NCBI GenBank assembly: GCA_937936465.1
Contig: CALDDH010000005.1
Coordinates: 1-64,000, forward strand
Origin: an uncultured Mycoplasmatales bacterium
Lineage (GTDB): Bacteria; Bacillota_I; Bacilli_A; UBA3375
Direction of reading: 5' to 3'
DNA: 64,000 bases
Of the stretch, positions 63-61,185 are shown in pieces. Under the pieces are notes generated by a model. The model saw only the letters and a list, made by a program, of their open reading frames with translations, did not search any database and was not told the origin of the DNA. Both the position numbers and the translations under genes were made by a program. The first letter of the stretch is position 1. Each line of letters starts with the position of its first letter.

Positions 63-172
63 TCTGGTATTGATTGTGCTGGTGTTACACCTGTTCCCAT
101 CTCGAACACAGAAGTTAAGCCCAGTCACGCTTGATGTAGTACGTTTTCGTGCAAGATATAGTCTTTGCCAGT
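63..172 (+). rRNA. rrf: 5S ribosomal RNA
   Basis: The 5S signature segment CGAACACAGAAGTTAAGC lies near 103-120. The ends pair as a terminal helix: CTGGTA at 64-69 with TGCCAG at 166-171. The length of about 110 nt fits 5S rRNA. The rest of the rRNA operon would lie upstream, outside the window. Confidence 0.95.
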
Positions 173-187
173 TTAAATTAATTAAAT

Positions 188-10842: not shown

Positions 10843-10935
10843 ATGTTTGTATTAATATTTATTATAATTGTAATGATATTTCCAATTAACCATTTTCTTG
10901 TCATCAACAGAAATAAGAAAAAACTAAAACTTTAA
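10843..10935 (+). CDS. Small single-pass membrane peptide (30 aa), hypothetical
   Basis: ATG 10843 follows the strong ribosome binding site GAGGGG by 8 bases. The peptide is a hydrophobic helix (MFVLIFIIIVMIFPI) followed by a basic tail rich in Lys and Arg. This layout is shared by many small membrane regulators and type I toxins. There is no visible antitoxin RNA, and no family is recognised. Only the start signal and the amphiphilic design support it. Confidence 0.4.
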   Translation: MFVLIFIIIVMIFPINHFLVINRNKKKLKL

Positions 10936-12643: not shown

Positions 12644-15442
12644 ATGGCTAATAAATTACTAACTATTGGTATTACCACATATGATAATAGTCAATATATT
12701 AATCAGTTATTAAATATAATCAACCACCAAATAAAAATTGATCAAAATCTTTTGAATTTGGTGGATTTTTCTCTATATGATGATTTAAGTAGTGATAGTA
12801 GTTTTTTAAATAAGTTGCCGACTTATTTTAATGTATATCAAGCAAAAGTTAATAGTGGCTCGCCATCAGTTGGAAGAAATCATATTATAAATCAAGCAAA
12901 CAGTCAGTATATTTTATTTATTGATGGAGATGATATGTTGTTGAGTAATATTAACTTAATATTAGATAAGCTACTTAATAATCAACATGATCTAATAGTT
13001 ACGCCAGTCAAGATGATTAATAGTAATACTATTATGCCATCACCATTTTTATATAATGACAAATTATTTAATTCAAATAGTAGTCAAGATCTAATTGAAA
13101 AAATTTGTGTTCATCAAACAGGTATTTGGAGTATTTATAAATTAAGTTTCTTAAAAGAGCATAATATACAATATAGAGCAGATATTAGATATGAAGATAA
13201 TTATTTTCTATATAGTATCTTATTAAATAACCCACAAATACAAGCTCTAAATCTTAATTACTATGGTTGGAGACAACATCAGCAAAGTTTTAGTAATTCA
13301 AGCTTTTCTTTTGATAGTAGAGTTGAATTGTTTAAAGAAACATTAAAGCTTCTTAAGTTACATCCAGAACATAAATTATCGCCTTATATATTGTTTTCAA
13401 TTTATAACCAAACATATTCTAATTTACTAATTAATCACTTTAAATTATCTAATAAAGAGATTAAATTAAATTACCATAAATTAAAAGAACTTGAAAAAAA
13501 CAATCAAAAGTTAATAAAAGGTTTAAAAGCAAGGTCAAATAAACAAGTTACTGCCTTTTATTTTGATAAAACTAAAGATAATATATTTAATAATTACTCA
13601 TTTTTTAAACTATTTAAATTATATAAACAAGTTAAAGAAAATAAGTCTAAAATTGATTTGTTTCTTTTAAAAGTTGTTATTTACTTTCCACATAATAAAC
13701 GTGAGAAAAAAAGTAATAAAAAAAGTTTATACAATCAAGATAGATATATTAATTTATACAGCGATGGCTTTTTAAAGCACTTTAAATATTTTAATAAGTT
13801 ACCAAAATTTTTAAAAGAAGCAATTATTTATCAAATTGAGTGGAATCTAAAAGAGTTAAAAGAAAGTAAGCTTATTTTAAAGCCAGAACAAAGACTTAAA
13901 AGAGAACTTGATTTACAAGTCTTATTTAAACAAATTGACTTCAGTTATATAGCGAGTCATCCACAATGTTTTAATGATACTTATCAAATAGGGATCAATA
14001 ATAAATATTATAATTTAAAAAATGATTTAAAAGCTAAAATTACATATGTTCAAGAAACAGAATTTTATTATAAGTTTTTACTAATTGATAGTGATGATAT
14101 TTATAATGAAAATCAAGTAGCTAATATTAATTCAAATATTTCAGATGATCTAAATAATAATCAAGTAAATAATTGGGATATTTATTTAGATGATGTAAAG
14201 TATCAAGTGAGTGATTTAGATAACCGTTTTAAACAAATCAATTTAAATCATAAAGCATTTGTTAATTATCGTTATATTAAGATTGAGAAGAAATATCAAA
14301 GTATAATAATTGAGCATAATAAAATAAATCAATTAATTCCTTTTAATTACGAATATCAAGATAAGGAATTTAATCAAGCAAGTTCAATTATTTTATTTGA
14401 CCGAGAGAATAAAGCTGATGATAATGCTGAAGTCTTTTATAACTGGATGAAAGCTAATCACCCACAATATAATAATATATATTATGCAATTAGAAAAGAA
14501 AGTAGCGATTATATAAGGTTAAAAAAAGAAGGATTTAAGTTAGTTGATTATGGAAGTAAGGAATTTGATAAATTATATCTTAACAGTGACTTTATAATTA
14601 GTAGTGGGTTAGATGAAAGTTTAATATCTGATTATAAGAAACTAAGATTAACTACTAAATCAAAGGCCAAATTTATCTTTTTACAACACGGTGTGATCAC
14701 CGATGACTTAAGTGAATTGTTAAGGAATAAGTTAATTGATAAAATAATTGTAACAGCGAACATTGAATATGATAACTTAGTTAATAAATATCATTTTTTT
14801 AAAGAAGAAGTTATGCTAACAGGTCTTCCACGATTTGATAAATTATATGATAATTCAAAGAAAGAAATATTACTGCAATTAACTTGGAGAAATTTATATC
14901 ATAATTATAATAGTAGCGAGATTAATAAAACAAATTATATTCAAAAGATTAAAAGGATATTGAGTGATCCAACCTTAATTAATAAATTAAAATCAAGTGG
15001 ATACATTATTAAATATATTGCACATCCACAAATGAATCAACATCTTGATTTATTTAAAAGTTATGATAATGAAAATATTGAAATTTTAAATGTTAATAAT
15101 ATAAGTTATCGTGATCAATTTGCAGCTGCTAAATTATTAGTTACAGATTACTCTTCGGTGTTTGCTGATTTTAGTTATTTAAAAAAACCAGTTATTTATT
15201 ATCAAGATGATTTAGATGATTTTTATAGGTCGCATACTTATGGTCAAGAGATAAATTATCAAAAAGGTGGACTTGGACCAGTTACCCAAAACCATCAAGA
15301 TTTAATTAATCAAATAATTGAGTATATTGACAATGAGTGTCAGGTAGAAGATAAATATATTAAGAGAATAGATAAGTTCTTTAAATACAATGATCAAAAT
15401 AACTGTCAAAGACTCTATGATCGTTTAAAAGAAGACTATTAA
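12644..15442 (+). CDS. GT2-TagF bifunctional wall-polymer polymerase
   Basis: The 932-residue protein is a paralogue of the gene at 321. The N-terminal GT2 domain shows LTIGITTY, DGDD at 94-97, VHQTGIWSIY, RYEDN and YYGWRQH. A long middle region (about 300-570) includes a beta-rich segment. The C-terminal TagF-type glycerophosphotransferase domain starts near 585 (LFDRENKADDNAEVF) and carries LQHGVITDD near 680, LTGLPRFDKL, AHP and TDYSSVFADF near 835. Together these suggest transfer of a sugar and of a polyol phosphate by one polypeptide. The start has GAGGAG 10 bases upstream. A related gene follows after 12 bp. Confidence 0.88.
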   Translation: MANKLLTIGITTYDNSQYINQLLNIINHQIKIDQNLLNLVDFSLYDDLSSDSSFLNKLPTYFNVYQAKVNSGSPSVGRNHIINQANSQYILFIDGDDMLLSNINLILDKLLNNQHDLIVTPVKMINSNTIMPSPFLYNDKLFNSNSSQDLIEKICVHQTGIWSIYKLSFLKEHNIQYRADIRYEDNYFLYSILLNNPQIQALNLNYYGWRQHQQSFSNSSFSFDSRVELFKETLKLLKLHPEHKLSPYILFSIYNQTYSNLLINHFKLSNKEIKLNYHKLKELEKNNQKLIKGLKARSNKQVTAFYFDKTKDNIFNNYSFFKLFKLYKQVKENKSKIDLFLLKVVIYFPHNKREKKSNKKSLYNQDRYINLYSDGFLKHFKYFNKLPKFLKEAIIYQIEWNLKELKESKLILKPEQRLKRELDLQVLFKQIDFSYIASHPQCFNDTYQIGINNKYYNLKNDLKAKITYVQETEFYYKFLLIDSDDIYNENQVANINSNISDDLNNNQVNNWDIYLDDVKYQVSDLDNRFKQINLNHKAFVNYRYIKIEKKYQSIIIEHNKINQLIPFNYEYQDKEFNQASSIILFDRENKADDNAEVFYNWMKANHPQYNNIYYAIRKESSDYIRLKKEGFKLVDYGSKEFDKLYLNSDFIISSGLDESLISDYKKLRLTTKSKAKFIFLQHGVITDDLSELLRNKLIDKIIVTANIEYDNLVNKYHFFKEEVMLTGLPRFDKLYDNSKKEILLQLTWRNLYHNYNSSEINKTNYIQKIKRILSDPTLINKLKSSGYIIKYIAHPQMNQHLDLFKSYDNENIEILNVNNISYRDQFAAAKLLVTDYSSVFADFSYLKKPVIYYQDDLDDFYRSHTYGQEINYQKGGLGPVTQNHQDLINQIIEYIDNECQVEDKYIKRIDKFFKYNDQNNCQRLYDRLKEDY

Positions 15443-15454
15443 GCAAAGGAAATT

Positions 15455-17902
15455 ATGAATAAGATATTGAACGTAATTGAAAAAATAAAAATGGCTTTAA
15501 AATTAATTAGTTTTAAGCATCCAATCAGAAACATTAAAAAAATAACTAGAGAAGTTATTTACAATCTATTTAAATCAAAAACTTCAACATTCACAATAAT
15601 AACTGAAATTAAAGATATTGAAGTAACGCATATTAATAAATACTTTAATACAATAATAAATAATAATTATCAACTTGATAAAGTTGAAATTATTTTATAT
15701 GGAGAAATAAGTAATCAAGAAATTGAAAGAGAAATTAATGAGTGGATAGTTGAATATCCAAAGATTATTAAGCTAATAAAAGACAGTGATATAAATAAAG
15801 CAGTCCAAGTAAGTCAAAATAACTGGATAACTTTTATTAAATTTAATGATTTTATTGACTTTAATTATTTTAAGCAAATAGATAAAGCAATATATGTTAG
15901 TAAAGGACAACCATTAGTATGTGCAAAGCCAATTACTTATAATGAATTAAATCAAACTTTCATTAATGACAATCCTTTTGCTAGTAAATACAAAACATTT
16001 TTCTCAACTATTAAAAGAGATTTAACCAAAGAACAAATGTCTTTTGAAAGAGAAACAAAGTTAGCTTTTTTCAATAGAGCTATTTTAAATCAAAAAAAAA
16101 TTGAATTTACAAATCAAACAACTGACTTTAAAGAGCAAACTTTTATTTGGCAATATTTAAAGCAAATAGATAATTATAATATTACATACGTTAGGTCAGC
16201 CAAATATTATGCACGTAAACAAAATCAAATCAATAATGATTTAGATCCAAGTTTCTATACAAGGGGTTTAAACTATTATTTAGACCTTCTAGTCTTATCA
16301 AGTGATTACAAGCTAGAGATTAAAGAGACAATAATTAATGCAATTATTTATGATTTAATTCGTAATATTAAGAATTTAGAATGGAAACAAGTTGATCTAA
16401 TAAACGATCAAAGAATTATTCGTGAAGATTATTTAAGTCAAATATTTAAGCTAATACCCTTTGAAAATATAATCAAAAGAAAAAAACAATGTTCAAGAAA
16501 TTATCAAATTGGAATTAACAAAAGGTATTATAGTAATTTAGGTGAAATAAATAATAAAATAAAATATATTCAAGAAACAAAAGACTATTATAAGTATTTA
16601 CTAATTGATTCAGAGGACAATTGGGAATTTTACTTAGATAATCAAAAATATCAAGTGAGTGACTTAGAAAATAGAATACAATATACTTATATAAATGATC
16701 AAGTTTTTACAAATAGAAGATATATAAAAATATATAAGAAATACACTGATGTCAGATTTGAGTATTTAGGAGTTAAACAAGAATTGCCAATTGTAAATTT
16801 TAAATATCAAGATAAAGAGTTTAATCAAGATAGTATTATTCTCTTATTTGATCGTGAAAATAAAGCTGATGATAATGCTGAAGTCTTTTACGAGTGGATG
16901 CAAGCAAAACACCCAGAATATGAGCGAGTGTATTATGTTCTTAGTAAAGATAGTATTGATTGGAAAAGACTAGATGCTAAAGGTTATAAACTTGTAGATT
17001 ATGGTAGTAAAAACTTTGAAAAGTTATATCAACAAGCTGATTTCTTACTTAGTAGTTCACTTCATGCATCTTTAATATCAAATTATAAACAAATGAGATA
17101 TAATGGCAAAAAAAGAAAAGCACATTCTAAGTTTGTTTTCTTACAGCATGGAATTATTTTAAATGACATGTCTAAATGGTTTGGAAATCGTAAGATTGAT
17201 CAAATGGTTGTAACTGCAAACCCAGAATATCATAATTTAGTTAATAAATATACTTTTTTTGATGATCAAATAATACATAGTGGATTACCAAGGTATGATA
17301 AATTGTATACTAATCCACAAAAAGAAATATTACTTCAATTAACATGGCGAAAAGAATTACAGGAAATGACAACTGAAGAAATAAGCAAAAGTGATTATAT
17401 TAAAAAAATTAAAAATATACTAAAAGATTCCGGTTTATTATCTAAATTAAAAGAATATGGTTATATTTTGAAGTATATACCACATCCAGAAATTAATCCT
17501 CATATATCTTTATTTAAAGAAAATGAAAATGAATATATACAAGCTATAGATGCAACTAAAATTATTTATCGAGATCAGTTTGCAAGGGCAAATTTAATGA
17601 TAACCGATTATTCATCTGTATTTACCGATTTTTGTTATTTAAAAAAACCAGTAATTTATTATCAAGATGATTATACTGAATTTTACAAAGCCCATATATA
17701 TGGTCCTGAAGTAAATTATAAGAGTGCAGGATTAGGACCAGTTCAAGAAAATCATCAAGATTTAATTAATAAGATAATTGAATACATTGATAATGACTGC
17801 CAGATGGAAGAGAAATATATTCAAAGAGTAAATCAGTTTTTTAAATATAATGATCAAAATAATTGTCAAAGGTTATATGATCGTTTAAGAGCAGATTATT
17901 AG
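15455..17902 (+). CDS. TagF-like polyol-phosphate transferase with degenerate GT2 domain
   Basis: The protein has 815 residues. The C-terminal half is closely related to the preceding gene, with long stretches nearly identical in DNA. It carries LFDRENKADDNAEVFYEWM near 466, LQHGIILNDMS near 563, SGLPRYDKL and TDYSSVFTDFCYLKKP near 717, the expected signature of the CDP-glycerol glycerophosphotransferase family. The N-terminal ~250 residues can be read as a GT2-like fold, but they lack the DGDD motif and the ITTY opening. That module may be inactive or have become a binding domain. The gene lies in the same operon as its paralogue and arose by tandem duplication. Confidence 0.85.
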   Translation: MNKILNVIEKIKMALKLISFKHPIRNIKKITREVIYNLFKSKTSTFTIITEIKDIEVTHINKYFNTIINNNYQLDKVEIILYGEISNQEIEREINEWIVEYPKIIKLIKDSDINKAVQVSQNNWITFIKFNDFIDFNYFKQIDKAIYVSKGQPLVCAKPITYNELNQTFINDNPFASKYKTFFSTIKRDLTKEQMSFERETKLAFFNRAILNQKKIEFTNQTTDFKEQTFIWQYLKQIDNYNITYVRSAKYYARKQNQINNDLDPSFYTRGLNYYLDLLVLSSDYKLEIKETIINAIIYDLIRNIKNLEWKQVDLINDQRIIREDYLSQIFKLIPFENIIKRKKQCSRNYQIGINKRYYSNLGEINNKIKYIQETKDYYKYLLIDSEDNWEFYLDNQKYQVSDLENRIQYTYINDQVFTNRRYIKIYKKYTDVRFEYLGVKQELPIVNFKYQDKEFNQDSIILLFDRENKADDNAEVFYEWMQAKHPEYERVYYVLSKDSIDWKRLDAKGYKLVDYGSKNFEKLYQQADFLLSSSLHASLISNYKQMRYNGKKRKAHSKFVFLQHGIILNDMSKWFGNRKIDQMVVTANPEYHNLVNKYTFFDDQIIHSGLPRYDKLYTNPQKEILLQLTWRKELQEMTTEEISKSDYIKKIKNILKDSGLLSKLKEYGYILKYIPHPEINPHISLFKENENEYIQAIDATKIIYRDQFARANLMITDYSSVFTDFCYLKKPVIYYQDDYTEFYKAHIYGPEVNYKSAGLGPVQENHQDLINKIIEYIDNDCQMEEKYIQRVNQFFKYNDQNNCQRLYDRLRADY

Positions 17903-29117: not shown

Positions 29118-29193
29118 GGAGAATTAGCTCAGTTGGGAGAGCATCTGCCTTACAAGCAGAGGGTCAGCGGTTCGAGCCCGTTATTCTCCACCA
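29118..29193 (+). tRNA. tRNA-Val (UAC)
   Basis: A 76 nt cloverleaf has acceptor GGAGAAT pairing with ATTCTCC, anticodon loop CTTACAA carrying TAC on a TCTGC/GCAGA stem, T-arm with GGTTCGAGCC, and encoded CCA at 29191-29193. Confidence 0.97.
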
Positions 29194-45769: not shown

Positions 45770-46687
45770 GTGATTTATATTTATTATGGAGATAATGAGT
45801 ATTTAATTCAAAAAGATATAAGTGATCAAATTGGTCAATCTGAGTTAGTTGAAATAGATTTTGATTTAATTAATATGAGTGAGTTGTTTGCGATGATGGC
45901 AAGTCAAGATTTGTTTGCAACTAAAAAAACATATTTATTTACTAATATTGATTTATTTCAAGTCCAGAAAAATAAATACAATAAAATAAATAAAATTTGG
46001 ATTAATAAAATCTTTAATTTAGATGTTGATATTATAATTATGAATACAAAAAAAATAAATAAAAAAGCACAAATATATCATGATCATCATCATCAAATTG
46101 TATATAAAGAATATTTGCAAAAATCAATTAATTTTAAAACTCAGACTAAAAAATATATAAGTGATCAAGGGATAAAAATTGATCAAGAATCATTGGGTAT
46201 ATTAAATGATAATTTTAATGAAGATATGCCTGGTTTCATGAATGAAGTCGAAAAGTTAATTCAATTTACAAATTATCAGATGATAAATAAAAATGATATT
46301 GATCAAATAGGTGTTACAACTACAGAGACAAAAATTTTTCAATTATATAATTTTATCTTTCAAAAAAAACAAGTTAATGCAGTTAATTACTTAAATCAAT
46401 TAGTATCTAATGATGAAGATATTGATGTTCTATTATTAATTGGTTTTAAACAATTACAGAAGTACCATTTAGTTAAGCAATTATCATCAAAATCATTACC
46501 AAGTATGAAAATTGCTAGTTTAATTGAAATAAATAGTTATCAAGTAACTATAATTGAAAAAGAACTAGTTAATTGTGATTTATTACATTTAAGTAAGTTG
46601 GTTGTTGAAGCAAGTAATTTAGACCTTTTATATAAATCAGGTCAAATAAAAAGTTATGATGCATTAATCAAACTAATATTTTTATAA
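45770..46687 (+). CDS. holA: DNA polymerase III delta subunit
   Basis: HolA is the clamp-loader subunit that opens the sliding clamp. It has 305 residues with N-terminal MIYIYYGDNEYLIQKDI, a LFATKKTYLF strand typical of HolA domain I, and a C-terminal helical domain including LLIGFKQLQKYHLVKQL and the final SGQIKSYDALIKLIFL. It starts with GTG two bases after pgi. The family is poorly conserved, but length, order of motifs and position agree. Confidence 0.88.
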   Translation: MIYIYYGDNEYLIQKDISDQIGQSELVEIDFDLINMSELFAMMASQDLFATKKTYLFTNIDLFQVQKNKYNKINKIWINKIFNLDVDIIIMNTKKINKKAQIYHDHHHQIVYKEYLQKSINFKTQTKKYISDQGIKIDQESLGILNDNFNEDMPGFMNEVEKLIQFTNYQMINKNDIDQIGVTTTETKIFQLYNFIFQKKQVNAVNYLNQLVSNDEDIDVLLLIGFKQLQKYHLVKQLSSKSLPSMKIASLIEINSYQVTIIEKELVNCDLLHLSKLVVEASNLDLLYKSGQIKSYDALIKLIFL

Positions 46688-46741
46688 AAAAAATTTAAAA
46701 CAATGTATAATATATTTATTAAATTAATAAGAAGGAGAAAT

Positions 46742-47560
46742 ATGGGTAAAATTGGAATAGTAAATTTTAGTTCAACATCTTTTACAAAGAAAATGCTTGG
46801 TTTTGAAGCACTTGAAACAATTGATTTAGATGTTCAATTAGGTGGAGAGTCATACATTGGCAAAACACTTGAAGAGTTATTTGCTCGAGTAGAAGAAATT
46901 AAAGAGATACCTAAAACTTCACAACCATCACCGAAACATATGGCAGATGCATACTCAAAAATGAATAAGATTTATGATCATGTTATTGTCTTAACACCTG
47001 ATAAAGTCTTATCAGGAACTCATCAAGCTGCTGTCCTTGCATTAGAATTAGTTGAGAACAATAAAAATATCCATATTATTGAAACAAGATCTTTTGCACT
47101 ATCTGAAGCAATCCTTTGTGATAAAGCAATTGATTTAATAAATGATGATCATGATATAGAAAGTATTAAAAGTGAATTAGAAATATTAGCTAAAAAAATT
47201 ACAACTTTTATTATTCCAGGATCATTTGATTATTTAAAAATGAGTGGTCGAGTTAATTTATCACAACAAATAATTGGACGCTTAATGATGATGAAATTAT
47301 TAATTAAACATAAAAATGGATTAGCAGAAGTTTATAAAAAATCTCGTGGAACAAAAAAACTATTAAAAGAGATTCAAGTTGAATTAGAAAATTATAATAT
47401 TGATAAAATATATACAGCAAATATTTTAGCAGATCAAAAACTAGCTGAATTATCTGAATTATTCAATCAATATGAAATAGTAAATACTGATAAGACGAGT
47501 ATTATTATGGCCGCACATTTTGGACCAGATACTTTAGGTTTTGCAATTGTTGATAAATAA
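46742..47560 (+). CDS. DegV family fatty-acid-binding protein
   Basis: The 272-residue protein of the DegV/FakB fold binds single fatty acids and presents them to a kinase (FakA) in Firmicutes. Key segments are PKTSQPSPKHMADAY (the TSxPS loop), VIVLTPDKVLSGTHQAA and SGRVNLSQQIIGRLM. The start is ATG 46742 behind AGAAGGAG. An earlier in-frame ATG at 46703 lies on top of the -10 box TATAAT (46706-46711) and is rejected. A terminator follows. Confidence 0.9.
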   Translation: MGKIGIVNFSSTSFTKKMLGFEALETIDLDVQLGGESYIGKTLEELFARVEEIKEIPKTSQPSPKHMADAYSKMNKIYDHVIVLTPDKVLSGTHQAAVLALELVENNKNIHIIETRSFALSEAILCDKAIDLINDDHDIESIKSELEILAKKITTFIIPGSFDYLKMSGRVNLSQQIIGRLMMMKLLIKHKNGLAEVYKKSRGTKKLLKEIQVELENYNIDKIYTANILADQKLAELSELFNQYEIVNTDKTSIIMAAHFGPDTLGFAIVDK

Positions 47561-47567
47561 TAAAGAG

Positions 47568-47600
47568 ATGGATAAACTAAAAAGGTTTATTCATTTTTTT
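47568..47600 (+). terminator. Terminator after the DegV gene
   Basis: A 10 bp stem ATGGATAAAC with GTTTATTCAT, a 7-base loop and T7 follow the stop codon by 7 bases. Confidence 0.85.
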
Positions 47601-47631
47601 ATTACTTATTGTTGTTATTAATCTTAAGTAT

Positions 47632-47661
47632 AAAAAAAGAAAAGCCATATAGGCTTTTCTT
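47632..47661 (-). terminator. Minus-strand terminator of the sRNA candidate
   Basis: A perfect 10 bp stem with loop ATATA (47637-47646 with 47652-47661) is preceded on the plus strand by A-rich 47632-47636. A U tail therefore exists only on the minus transcript. Confidence 0.9.
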
Positions 47662-47791
47662 ATCTATAGTAGTTTCATATAATTCTAATCATTAGATGAT
47701 TAGAGAGGGGATTATGAGACTAATAAAGTTAATTCGAATATTGTTTGAGGGGATATAAATACATAAAGAGTATGTGACAAATTATTGCCAC
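47632..47791 (-). ncRNA. Candidate sRNA with two C-rich anti-Shine-Dalgarno motifs
   Basis: Read on the minus strand, a transcript starting near 47791 opens with a hairpin GUGGCA/UGUCAC whose G-U pair works only on this strand. It then carries two identical AUCCCCUC motifs (47754-47747 and 47712-47705), a hairpin CUAAUCAU-CUA-AUGAUUAG, and ends in a strong terminator AAGAAAAGCC/GGCUUUUCUU with a U tail. The motifs are complementary to GAGGGGAU ribosome binding sites. This design resembles the C-rich sRNAs of Firmicutes (RsaE/RoxS type), although no sequence match is claimed. No ORF is visible. It has its own consensus promoter. Confidence 0.75.
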
Positions 47792-47797
47792 AAGATA

Positions 47798-47826
47798 AGT
47801 ATAACAGAAACTAATTGTTATGTCAA
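47798..47826 (-). promoter_or_regulatory. Consensus minus-strand promoter of the sRNA candidate
   Basis: A perfect TTGACA (47826-47821) is followed after 17 bp by TATACT (47803-47798), with a G start 7 bases on. Confidence 0.9.
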
Positions 47827-48062
47827 TCTATTTGTGTAATAAATTTACAAAAGCCCTTAAAATAAGCATTTTTTATTTTTTCAAATTCAAAATAGCTATA
47901 GATAACTATTAAATAAATCAAAAAAGTGGCACGAAAAATATTTGAAAAGAATTAGTAATAGTAAAGTTGAGTACAAATGTTTGAAAAAATGATTAAAATA
48001 GTTAATAATATGCTATAATTTCATAAGGTATCGATCACATAAATTATCTAAAAAGGAGATAA
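47827..48062 (+). promoter_or_regulatory. Leader region with extended -10 promoter of the YitT-type gene
   Basis: TGCTATAAT at 48011-48019 is an extended -10 box 44 bases before ATG 48063. The rest of the interval is AT-rich without an ORF. I saw no other element in it. Confidence 0.55.
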
Positions 48063-48956
48063 ATGAAAAGTAATTTGCAATTAGTAAAAGAAGTACTATC
48101 TGATTATCGTACAATGATGATTTTAATTATTGGAACATTAATAAATATAATTGGAATAAACTTATTTTTAGTGCCTTTTAATTTATATCCAATTGGACTT
48201 ATGGGATTATCTTTTGAAATAAATGAAGTTATATATTTAATAACAAATACAACAATTCCAGAAAATATTTTATTCTTTGTTTTGAATATTCCGTTATTTA
48301 TATTATCTTGGAAAAAGATTGGAAAGAAATTTACAATTAAAACAATTATAGTAGTAAGTTTAATGACGTTTTATATGGCAATAATTCCAAACGATGTTAT
48401 TATAATTGATGATATATTCTTAAGTGTTGTTTTCAGTGCAATTATTGCTGGTTTTGGTTTAGGTATCTTACTTAATTCAGGTACATCAACAGGAGGATCT
48501 GATATTATCGCACTATTTATGTCATTAATTAAAGGTAAAACATTTGGAACATTCAATACAATATTTAATAGTTTCATAATATTTTTTGCAGTTCTTTTAA
48601 CACAAGATATATTTACAGGTGTTTATATGTTGATTTTTGTTTATTTCTTTAGTACTTCAGTTGATCGAACTCATAAAATGAGTAAAAAATACACTTTGTT
48701 AATAGTTACTAGTCAGGAAGAAGCAGTTAAAACACAAATTTATGGATCTGAAACTGAAAGAGGTGTAACTATTTTAAATTCACAAGGTGGATTTACGAAC
48801 AACCCAAATAAAACATTAATGATTACTTGTGAGCATTCTGAGTTATACTATATAATTGATTTAATTAAAGTTGCAGATGAAAATGTTTTTATAAGTGTTT
48901 TAGATACTGATACAGTTATTGGAACATTTGAAAATAGTTATAAAAAAAGATTGTAA
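48063..48956 (+). CDS. YitT family membrane protein
   Basis: The 297-residue protein has five or six transmembrane segments in the first two thirds (including GIGINLFLVPFN-like and GFGLGILLNSGTSTGGSDII segments typical of DUF161). A cytoplasmic DUF2179 domain at the C-terminus (about 210-297) contains ERGVTILNSQGGFTN and LMITCEHSELYYI. The function of the family is unknown; the C-terminal domain looks like a small-ligand sensor. It is followed after 10 bp by the Mur ligase gene. Confidence 0.88.
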   Translation: MKSNLQLVKEVLSDYRTMMILIIGTLINIIGINLFLVPFNLYPIGLMGLSFEINEVIYLITNTTIPENILFFVLNIPLFILSWKKIGKKFTIKTIIVVSLMTFYMAIIPNDVIIIDDIFLSVVFSAIIAGFGLGILLNSGTSTGGSDIIALFMSLIKGKTFGTFNTIFNSFIIFFAVLLTQDIFTGVYMLIFVYFFSTSVDRTHKMSKKYTLLIVTSQEEAVKTQIYGSETERGVTILNSQGGFTNNPNKTLMITCEHSELYYIIDLIKVADENVFISVLDTDTVIGTFENSYKKRL

Positions 48957-48966
48957 GTGAGGAAAT

Positions 48967-50556
48967 ATGTTGAGAGTAATCTTTGGTTTAATAAGTAGTT
49001 CAATTATTATTTGTTTATTAGTTATTTATTTTTTAATTAAAACAAAAAAACAATTTCATATTTTACAACAAAGTGGTTATGATCTTAAGCGATATTTTAA
49101 ATATATTTCTGAAAATAAACTTTTCTATATTGCATTTAATGAACTTATTTTACTACTGACGTATTTAATAGTAGATAACTATTTATTTATTAGTTATTTA
49201 ATTATCTTTATATTTGTATATTATAATTTATACTTTATTAACTTAAAAGATAAATATTTTGTTGTAAAAAAGAAATTAGTTTATACAAAGAGAATAAAAA
49301 GACAAATAGTTACATTTATTATATTAAATGTAGTTTTCATTATTTTGTATTTAGTAAATAGTTTTCATATTATTTATTTAATTATATTAATTACTTATTT
49401 TAATTATTTATTATTAATGTTAGCTACATTAATTAATAAGCCGATTGAATCTTTAATTAGAAGAAAGTATCAAAAGAAAGCAATTAATAAACTTAAAGGT
49501 CATCCTAGTTTAGATGTAATTGGGATTACTGGTAGTTATGGAAAAACATCAATCAAGAATATTGTTAACCAAATGTTAGAAGACAACGCGCCAACTCTAA
49601 TGACACCTGAAAGTTATAATACCCCAAATGGTGTTATGATAACTATTAATAATAGTCTAAGCAAATTTCATAAAACTTTTATATGTGAAATGGGTGCATA
49701 TTATCCAGGTGAAATAAAAAAACTTGCTAATATGGTTAGTCCAAGAATTGGAGTAGTTAGTAGCATTGGTAATCAACACCTGGAAACTTTCAAAACAATT
49801 GATAATATCCAAAAAACTAAAATGGAATTAATTGAAAATCTTGTGCCTGGTGGAATTGCAATCTTAAATTATGATGAGAAATATATTAAGAATTATCAAA
49901 TAAAACGTAATGATTTGAGTATTAAAACATATGCAATCGATAACCAAGACTGTGATGTATATGCAAAAGAAATTGAATATGATATTGCTAAAATGCGTTT
50001 TACTTTAGTGGATAATCTTAATAACACAAGTTATCAAATTGAAACTAAACTACTTGGGCGACATAATATTTATAATATTTTATGTGGATACTTAGTTACT
50101 AAAACCAAGGAAATTAAAGTCGATAAAATAATTGCTAGCATTAGTAATTTAAAACCAATTAAACACCGCTTAGAACTAAAGAAAATTGATAATGATACTT
50201 ATATAATCGATGACGCTTTTAATGCCAATCAAGTAGGTATTAATCAAGGGTTAGATATTGTAAGTGTATATGAAGAGTATGCTAAGATAATCATAACACC
50301 TGGGTTAATTGATTTAGGAACAGACCAAAAGCAGGTTAATTATCAGTTAGGTCAGAGTATTGCAAAAAAAGTTGACATAAGCTTTATTATTGGTAAATAC
50401 AATCAACAAGATATAACATCGGGAATTGAAAATATAAATAATCAAAGTCAATATTATACAGAGAAGAATTTCATTGATGCATATAATAAAGCAATGAAAG
50501 TTAAGGGTAAAAAAATAATTTTAATTGCTAATGACTTACCAGATAAATTCAATTGA
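48967..50556 (+). CDS. Membrane-anchored Mur ligase (MurF-like)
   Basis: The 529-residue enzyme has an N-terminal membrane domain of about five helices (1-155). A Mur ligase core follows, with ATP-binding GITGSYGKTS near 185-194, SYNTPNGVM, EMGAYYPGEIKKLA and SIGNQHLETF in the central domain, and the C-terminal DDAFNANQVG loop. The family adds D-Ala-D-Ala to UDP-MurNAc-tripeptide, and the Ddl gene immediately downstream supports that. The membrane fusion is unlike soluble MurF, so the exact substrate is inferred. No other murF lies in the window. Confidence 0.85.
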   Translation: MLRVIFGLISSSIIICLLVIYFLIKTKKQFHILQQSGYDLKRYFKYISENKLFYIAFNELILLLTYLIVDNYLFISYLIIFIFVYYNLYFINLKDKYFVVKKKLVYTKRIKRQIVTFIILNVVFIILYLVNSFHIIYLIILITYFNYLLLMLATLINKPIESLIRRKYQKKAINKLKGHPSLDVIGITGSYGKTSIKNIVNQMLEDNAPTLMTPESYNTPNGVMITINNSLSKFHKTFICEMGAYYPGEIKKLANMVSPRIGVVSSIGNQHLETFKTIDNIQKTKMELIENLVPGGIAILNYDEKYIKNYQIKRNDLSIKTYAIDNQDCDVYAKEIEYDIAKMRFTLVDNLNNTSYQIETKLLGRHNIYNILCGYLVTKTKEIKVDKIIASISNLKPIKHRLELKKIDNDTYIIDDAFNANQVGINQGLDIVSVYEEYAKIIITPGLIDLGTDQKQVNYQLGQSIAKKVDISFIIGKYNQQDITSGIENINNQSQYYTEKNFIDAYNKAMKVKGKKIILIANDLPDKFN

Positions 50557-61030: not shown

Positions 61031-61059
61031 TTCACATCTTAATTGTAAGGCACTATAAT
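61031..61059 (+). promoter_or_regulatory. Promoter of the second sRNA candidate
   Basis: TTCACA at 61031-61036 and TATAAT at 61054-61059 are separated by 17 bp. Confidence 0.75.
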
Positions 61060-61065
61060 AGGATA

Positions 61066-61185
61066 GAGTAGAATAAGAATATGTAAAAGATATTCAATAA
61101 GCTTTAATACTTTAATTATTATATTTGTTAATCAGCATGTATATTTATATAGGAAAAGACAAGCTGATCAAAGCTTGTCTTTTTA
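61066..61185 (+). ncRNA. Candidate sRNA upstream of the BCCT gene end
   Basis: A transcript of about 120 nt is bounded by a good promoter and a perfect 12 bp terminator. It contains a GAAUAU/AUAUUC hairpin at 61077-61095 and no ORF with a start signal. Its function is unknown. The terminator may instead serve only the convergent BCCT gene, so the call rests mainly on the promoter. Confidence 0.5.
61154..61184. terminator. Bidirectional terminator between sRNA candidate and BCCT gene
   Basis: A 12 bp perfect stem AAAAGACAAGCT/AGCTTGTCTTTT has loop GATCAA. The T run favours the plus strand, and the flanking A run gives a shorter U tail on the minus strand. Confidence 0.9.

Follow-up and report, generated by a model that had tools for sequence, protein, structure and literature searches.

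A predicted minus-strand small RNA with two C-rich motifs from an uncultured Mycoplasmatales bacterium

The locus and its predicted transcript

Does the intergenic DNA between a DegV-family gene and a YitT-family gene of this bacterium encode a small RNA (sRNA), and could such an RNA act on translation through the C-rich motifs that it carries? This question was examined in the window, the whole 64,000-nucleotide stretch that was analysed, where the DegV gene is convergent with the proposed RNA gene and the YitT gene is divergent from it. On the minus strand, a promoter was found at 47798-47826, consisting of a -35 element TTGACA (47826-47821), a 17-bp spacer, and a -10 element TATACT (47803-47798) extended by TG. 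It matched the consensus at 11 of 12 positions and was the top promoter-like site of the region 46000-50000 in our promoter scan. The predicted sRNA of approximately 160 nt (47632-47791) would start at a G (47791), 7 nt past the -10 element, and end at an intrinsic terminator (47637-47661) with a 10-bp stem containing 4 GC pairs, a UAUAU loop, and a U tail below 47637. The longest reading frame within it comprises 22 codons, and no frame has a convincing Shine-Dalgarno (SD) sequence. We are highly confident that an RNA gene exists here, and its prediction as a stand-alone gene on the minus strand is well supported. A phage origin of the locus was considered and found to be unsupported.

The promoter spacer holds a perfect inverted repeat, ATAACA-N9-TGTTAT (47801-47821), which is the sole exact copy in the window and is a possible operator. 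A pair of TTTAAG repeats, the CiaR-type element, was absent from the promoter when the sequence was read by eye. Rex was considered as a regulator because a TTTGTAA-TTACACAAA-like repeat lies upstream of the -35 element, and it was rejected, as no Rex DNA-binding domain was found in either genome of the family (its own and a distant one, G001).

The predicted fold of the minus-strand RNA had an energy of -35.3 kcal/mol, compared with -17.6 +/- 3.0 kcal/mol in shuffled sequences (z -5.8), and none of 200 shuffles was as good. It consists of three separate hairpins: a 5' hairpin, a central hairpin, and the terminator. The RNA starts directly with the 5' hairpin, UGUGGCAAUAAUUUGUCACA (47773-47792), of 7-8 bp, one of which is a G-U pair. 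The central hairpin (47670-47722) is made of an inner perfect palindrome (47684-47704) and an outer helix pairing 47670-47679 with 47713-47722. The first C-rich motif, AUCCCCUC (47747-47754), lies in a long unstructured stretch, and the second, identical one (47705-47712) lies in an internal loop of the central hairpin; the partition-function probabilities of being unpaired were 0.94-1.0 and 0.96-1.0, respectively, for their CCCCUC cores. The flank of motif 2, UCAUAA, is mostly paired, and motif 2 together with this flank is the reverse complement of GAGGGGAUUAUGAGA, an SD plus start codon. In DNA, the motif reads ATCCCCTC (47754-47747 and 47712-47705, minus strand), an 8-mer with 9 copies in the 987 kb of genome; the other 7 copies fall in the context of coding sequence, tRNAs, or insertion elements, and a comparable RNA was found at none of them. 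The first-pass annotation had listed the promoter, a 5' hairpin complete only in the minus-strand RNA, two identical motifs, an inner hairpin, a 10-bp terminator with a U tail, and some 160 nt devoid of an open reading frame, and each of these was recovered in the present analysis.

Pairing with translation start regions

Gene calling in 460 kb gave 386 genes, of which 134 had AGGAG as the SD form and 26 had AGGGG, a minor form. The two 18-nt C-rich stretches of the RNA, S1 and S2, preferred start regions over coding controls, with S1 in the top 1% of 400 random intergenic 18-mers and S2 above all of them. This preference was matched by 11 of 200 (S1) and 21 of 200 (S2) shuffles of the same letters; much of the bias is kept in such shuffles, and the RNA is therefore anti-SD-like mainly because it is rich in C and U. 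When the flanks were shuffled and CCCCUC was kept, 75 of 200 and 40 of 200 sequences were as good, so the flanks add nothing significant. Anti-AUG pairing by the flank of motif 2 was likewise tested and was unsupported, since shuffled flanks performed equally well. The complement of motif 2 and its flank, GRGGATTATGA, occurs 7 times in the genome, one occurrence being the sRNA locus itself, and its reversed control 0 times, a comparison of little weight, given that an SD and an ATG are part of start regions in any case. Several of the copies lie at gene starts, and the best duplex was that with recN (-23.0 kcal/mol).

The two open stretches, paired with the 386 start regions, gave a top-10 mean energy of -21.6 kcal/mol. 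Shuffled stretches gave -20.2 +/- 1.1 kcal/mol, and the real value was reached by 11 of 100 shuffled sRNAs; judged by these energies over the 386 genes, an evolved match to particular genes has no statistical support. The genes with AGGGG-type sites that had been put forward as targets fared unequally. Both gpx (-20.9 kcal/mol, rank 8 of 386 genes) and a peptide gene at window position 10843 (-20.2 kcal/mol) are fair candidates as predicted targets, whereas the pairing of msrA (-14.0 kcal/mol) and uvrB (-15.4 kcal/mol) was unremarkable. The peptide gene (10843-10935, plus strand) follows a tRNA gene, has a GAGGGG SD, and encodes a hydrophobic, basic-tailed peptide of 30 residues, MFVLIFIIIVMIFPINHFLVINRNKKKLKL, for which a Pfam match was not found.

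With somewhat better than even confidence, we favour an sRNA gene whose RNA blocks SD sites in trans through its two C-rich patches. The sRNA would be transcribed from a housekeeping-type promoter and end at a terminator, both its own, and it would most likely act in trans and without Hfq, a protein that was not found in either family genome (its own and G001). Either of the two identical exposed patches would start pairing with a G-rich, AGGGG-type ribosome-binding site; the duplex may reach across the start codon, and the ribosome would be kept from entering at the target. Gene anatomy, fold, and exposed motifs were computed here; transcription, trans action, repression, and targets are inferred. 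Of the earlier suggestion of a trans-acting translational regulator, the stand-alone minus-strand gene with C-rich motifs predicted to be unpaired held up, and specific trans-regulation found no statistical support, given the shuffled sRNAs that reached the same energies. In a bolder version, which we consider unlikely, the RNA is a lineage-specific repressor independent of Hfq, whose two equal seeds are complementary to entire start regions, from the SD across the spacer to the AUG. Such a repressor would have evolved separately from the csRNAs, LhrC, and RoxS, in a small-genome lineage of which few members have been sampled, and its targets might include repair and redox genes such as recN and gpx.

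It is possible, if doubtful, that the transcript is real and that its function is independent of the C-rich motifs, through binding of a protein or of RNA polymerase, or that it has little function, the patches being incidental. Such a reading draws on the largely compositional nature of the anti-SD preference and on target energies not beyond those of shuffles; 6S RNA was not found in the family, which leaves room for a housekeeping RNA that may have escaped recognition. It does not, however, account for an identical 8-mer present twice at a distance of 42 bp, unpaired both times and found at only 9 places in the genome, and the three separate hairpins are unlike 6S RNA. Identity with 6S RNA was itself rejected: RF00013 had no match in the own genome or G001, and the fold has no long closed hairpin with a bubble. 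In the own assembly, which is 87% complete, 16S rRNA, Hfq, the Rex domain, and 6S RNA were not found, while a 5S rRNA lies at window positions 63-173. Single gene absences are weak because of this incompleteness; G001 (93% complete) agrees on Hfq, Rex, and 6S RNA.

Strand assignment and chance occurrence

A stable fold is predicted for the plus-strand RNA as well (-40.0 kcal/mol, z -5.0). The one G-U pair in the 5' hairpin had been taken as an argument for the minus strand, and this argument failed: the outer helix of the central hairpin has an A-C mismatch in the minus-strand RNA and a U-G pair in the plus-strand RNA, so that it is complete in the plus-strand RNA only, and G-U pairs therefore cannot decide between the strands. 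The comparison being a draw, the strand call rests on the promoter and the U tail, which favour the minus strand. Should the plus strand nevertheless be the functional one, its hairpin would hide GAGAGGGGATTATG, the SD with the start codon for a peptide of 14 residues, MRLIKLIRILFEGI (47714-47758), a reading to which the better central helix and the low folding energy lend themselves and for which SD-ATTATG arrangements at gene starts of the same genome provide a parallel. We consider it improbable: no plus-strand promoter of the scanned type was found just upstream or nearby (scan of 46000-50000), a separate terminator for DegV appears to lie at about 47570-47600, the second GAGGGG has no usable start codon after it, and the frame is very short.

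The minus-strand gene was then weighed against chance. Promoter-like sites alone are abundant in AT-rich DNA and were no commoner than in shuffles, and promoter-to-terminator cassettes were therefore scanned, defined as intergenic pairs of a promoter with at least 10 of 12 matches and a terminator of 8 bp or more lying 60-300 nt downstream of it. The sample was 460 kb of the own genome, namely the window plus 20 stretches, annotated with a home-made gene caller. The scan yielded 10 matches at about 6 places, 3 of which are tRNA genes: one at window position 29118 and one at position 14400 of stretch L098 were identified by Rfam, and one near position 16240 of stretch L113 looks from its sequence like a tRNA whose variable arm is long, and is not listed at the Rfam threshold. 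The remaining cassettes are the sRNA locus, window positions 61031-61179, and a region of contig 16 with converging transcription. As half of these rare cassettes are tRNA genes, the sRNA locus is very probably a real RNA gene; the criterion picks mostly true RNA genes and is the strongest argument for this one. The cassette at 61031-61179 (plus strand) is a second orphan sRNA candidate, with TTCACA-17-TATAAT, a length of about 115 nt, a 13-bp terminator, and a z of -3.2, located between a gene for a trypsin-like protease and one for a BCCT-type transporter.

That there is no RNA gene here, only a promoter-like site lying by chance upstream of DegV's bidirectional terminator, is slightly less probable still than a functional plus strand. 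The abundance of promoter-like sites is in its favour, but an 11/12 promoter with TG occurs only 13 times in the 460 kb and is linked to an intergenic terminator almost only at tRNA genes, the fold z of -5.8 is left unexplained, and the U tail suits the minus strand. Least probable of all is a trans-acting antitoxin-type RNA directed either at small hydrophobic peptides encoded elsewhere in the genome or at the 30-residue peptide of position 10843. A 20-residue hydrophobic peptide on contig 6 has GGAGGATTATGA in its start region, which pairs with motif 2 with an energy of -15.9 kcal/mol, and the 10843 peptide pairs at -20.2 kcal/mol; yet these energies are unexceptional, and the two hydrophobic-peptide loci, on contigs 6 and 16, seem to be served by convergent promoters of their own on the opposite strand. 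Two similar hydrophobic peptides were seen, MIMLGLIIILILLLLIIVAIKS and MIFIILVMILLLLLIVAIKH, at 16595-16663 of stretch L114 (minus strand) and near 730 of stretch L122 (contig 6, minus strand, about 48185). Each is followed by a terminator and faced from the other side by a consensus-like promoter, TTGACA...TATAAT, a layout that resembles convergent type I toxin-antitoxin (par/Fst-like) loci; the one of the two compared with Pfam gave no match.

Relatives and comparison with known small RNAs

We return to the favoured reading, an sRNA blocking SD sites in trans. Rfam 15 gave no match to the locus at the gathering level and nothing credible at E values up to 10. A single-sequence covariance model found no convincing homologue in 149 relatives, among which there was one other, distant genome of the family (G001); the sole weak match (E 0.078 for one genome) lay mostly inside a coding gene plus a terminator and was taken as chance. 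DNA similarity searches of 60 relatives returned short AT-rich chance matches only, and a second full copy was not found in the own genome. A search for the double motif in 395 genomes of the class was discarded, with 4 genomes matched against 4 for the reversed control, and the foreign matches had different spacers. A scan of genome contigs with the DegV protein led to a distant Clostridia locus only. The DegV and YitT proteins of G001 are 39-40% identical to those of the own genome, a distance that, judged from these sequences, is too great for finding an intergenic sRNA. Synteny was not kept in G001, the sole other family genome compared, where a different gene follows DegV and no CCCCUC RNA was seen.

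If true, the favoured reading would add an SD-blocking sRNA from a small-genome lineage with almost no sampled relatives and without detectable Hfq, and it would suggest that a design of two or more C-rich patches arises repeatedly in low-GC bacteria. The general understanding would be unchanged, because Listeria, Staphylococcus, Bacillus, and Streptococcus already have well-known sRNAs of this type.

In low-GC bacteria, UCCC motifs masking the SD have been described as characteristic of sRNAs (PMC4132741), and a free-standing gene with an accessible C-rich seed, a feature of SD-blocking sRNAs, was found here in the predicted gene and fold. FsrA of Bacillus subtilis has two terminal helices around an unpaired stretch, and C-rich regions (PMC12871923). 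The sRNA described here shares an open stretch between helices and the C-rich regions, but FsrA is 84 nt long, compared with about 160 nt here, and no Rfam match links the two. RsaE/RoxS of Staphylococcus and Bacillus has several C-rich regions that can base-pair with G-rich SD sequences (PMC4409812), and the present sRNA likewise has C-rich regions that could pair in this way. RsaE/RoxS is, however, conserved across Bacillus and Staphylococcus and has a different layout, whereas the present sRNA has no homologue found and no Rfam match. The csRNAs of Streptococcus, small RNAs whose expression depends on CiaR, have hairpins around stretches complementary to the SD and start codon, and a 3' terminator (PMC3091779). 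Similarly, UCUCAUAAUCCCCUC is here the complement of an SD with AUUAUG after it; yet csRNAs occur in several similar copies rather than one, and the anti-AUG part here is mostly in a helix (CAU mostly paired) and has no statistical support. LhrC of Listeria monocytogenes combines redundant UCCC motifs in one RNA that can mask the SD, and Hfq is dispensable for it (PMC4132741). The likeness lies in the redundant C-rich motifs within one RNA; LhrC differs in having three UCCC motifs, one of them in the terminator loop, against two here and none in that loop, and five genes against one, and there is no Rfam or sequence match. In our assessment, the sRNA is an orphan whose functional kind is known from LhrC, RsaE/RoxS, and the csRNAs, and it stands outside those families.
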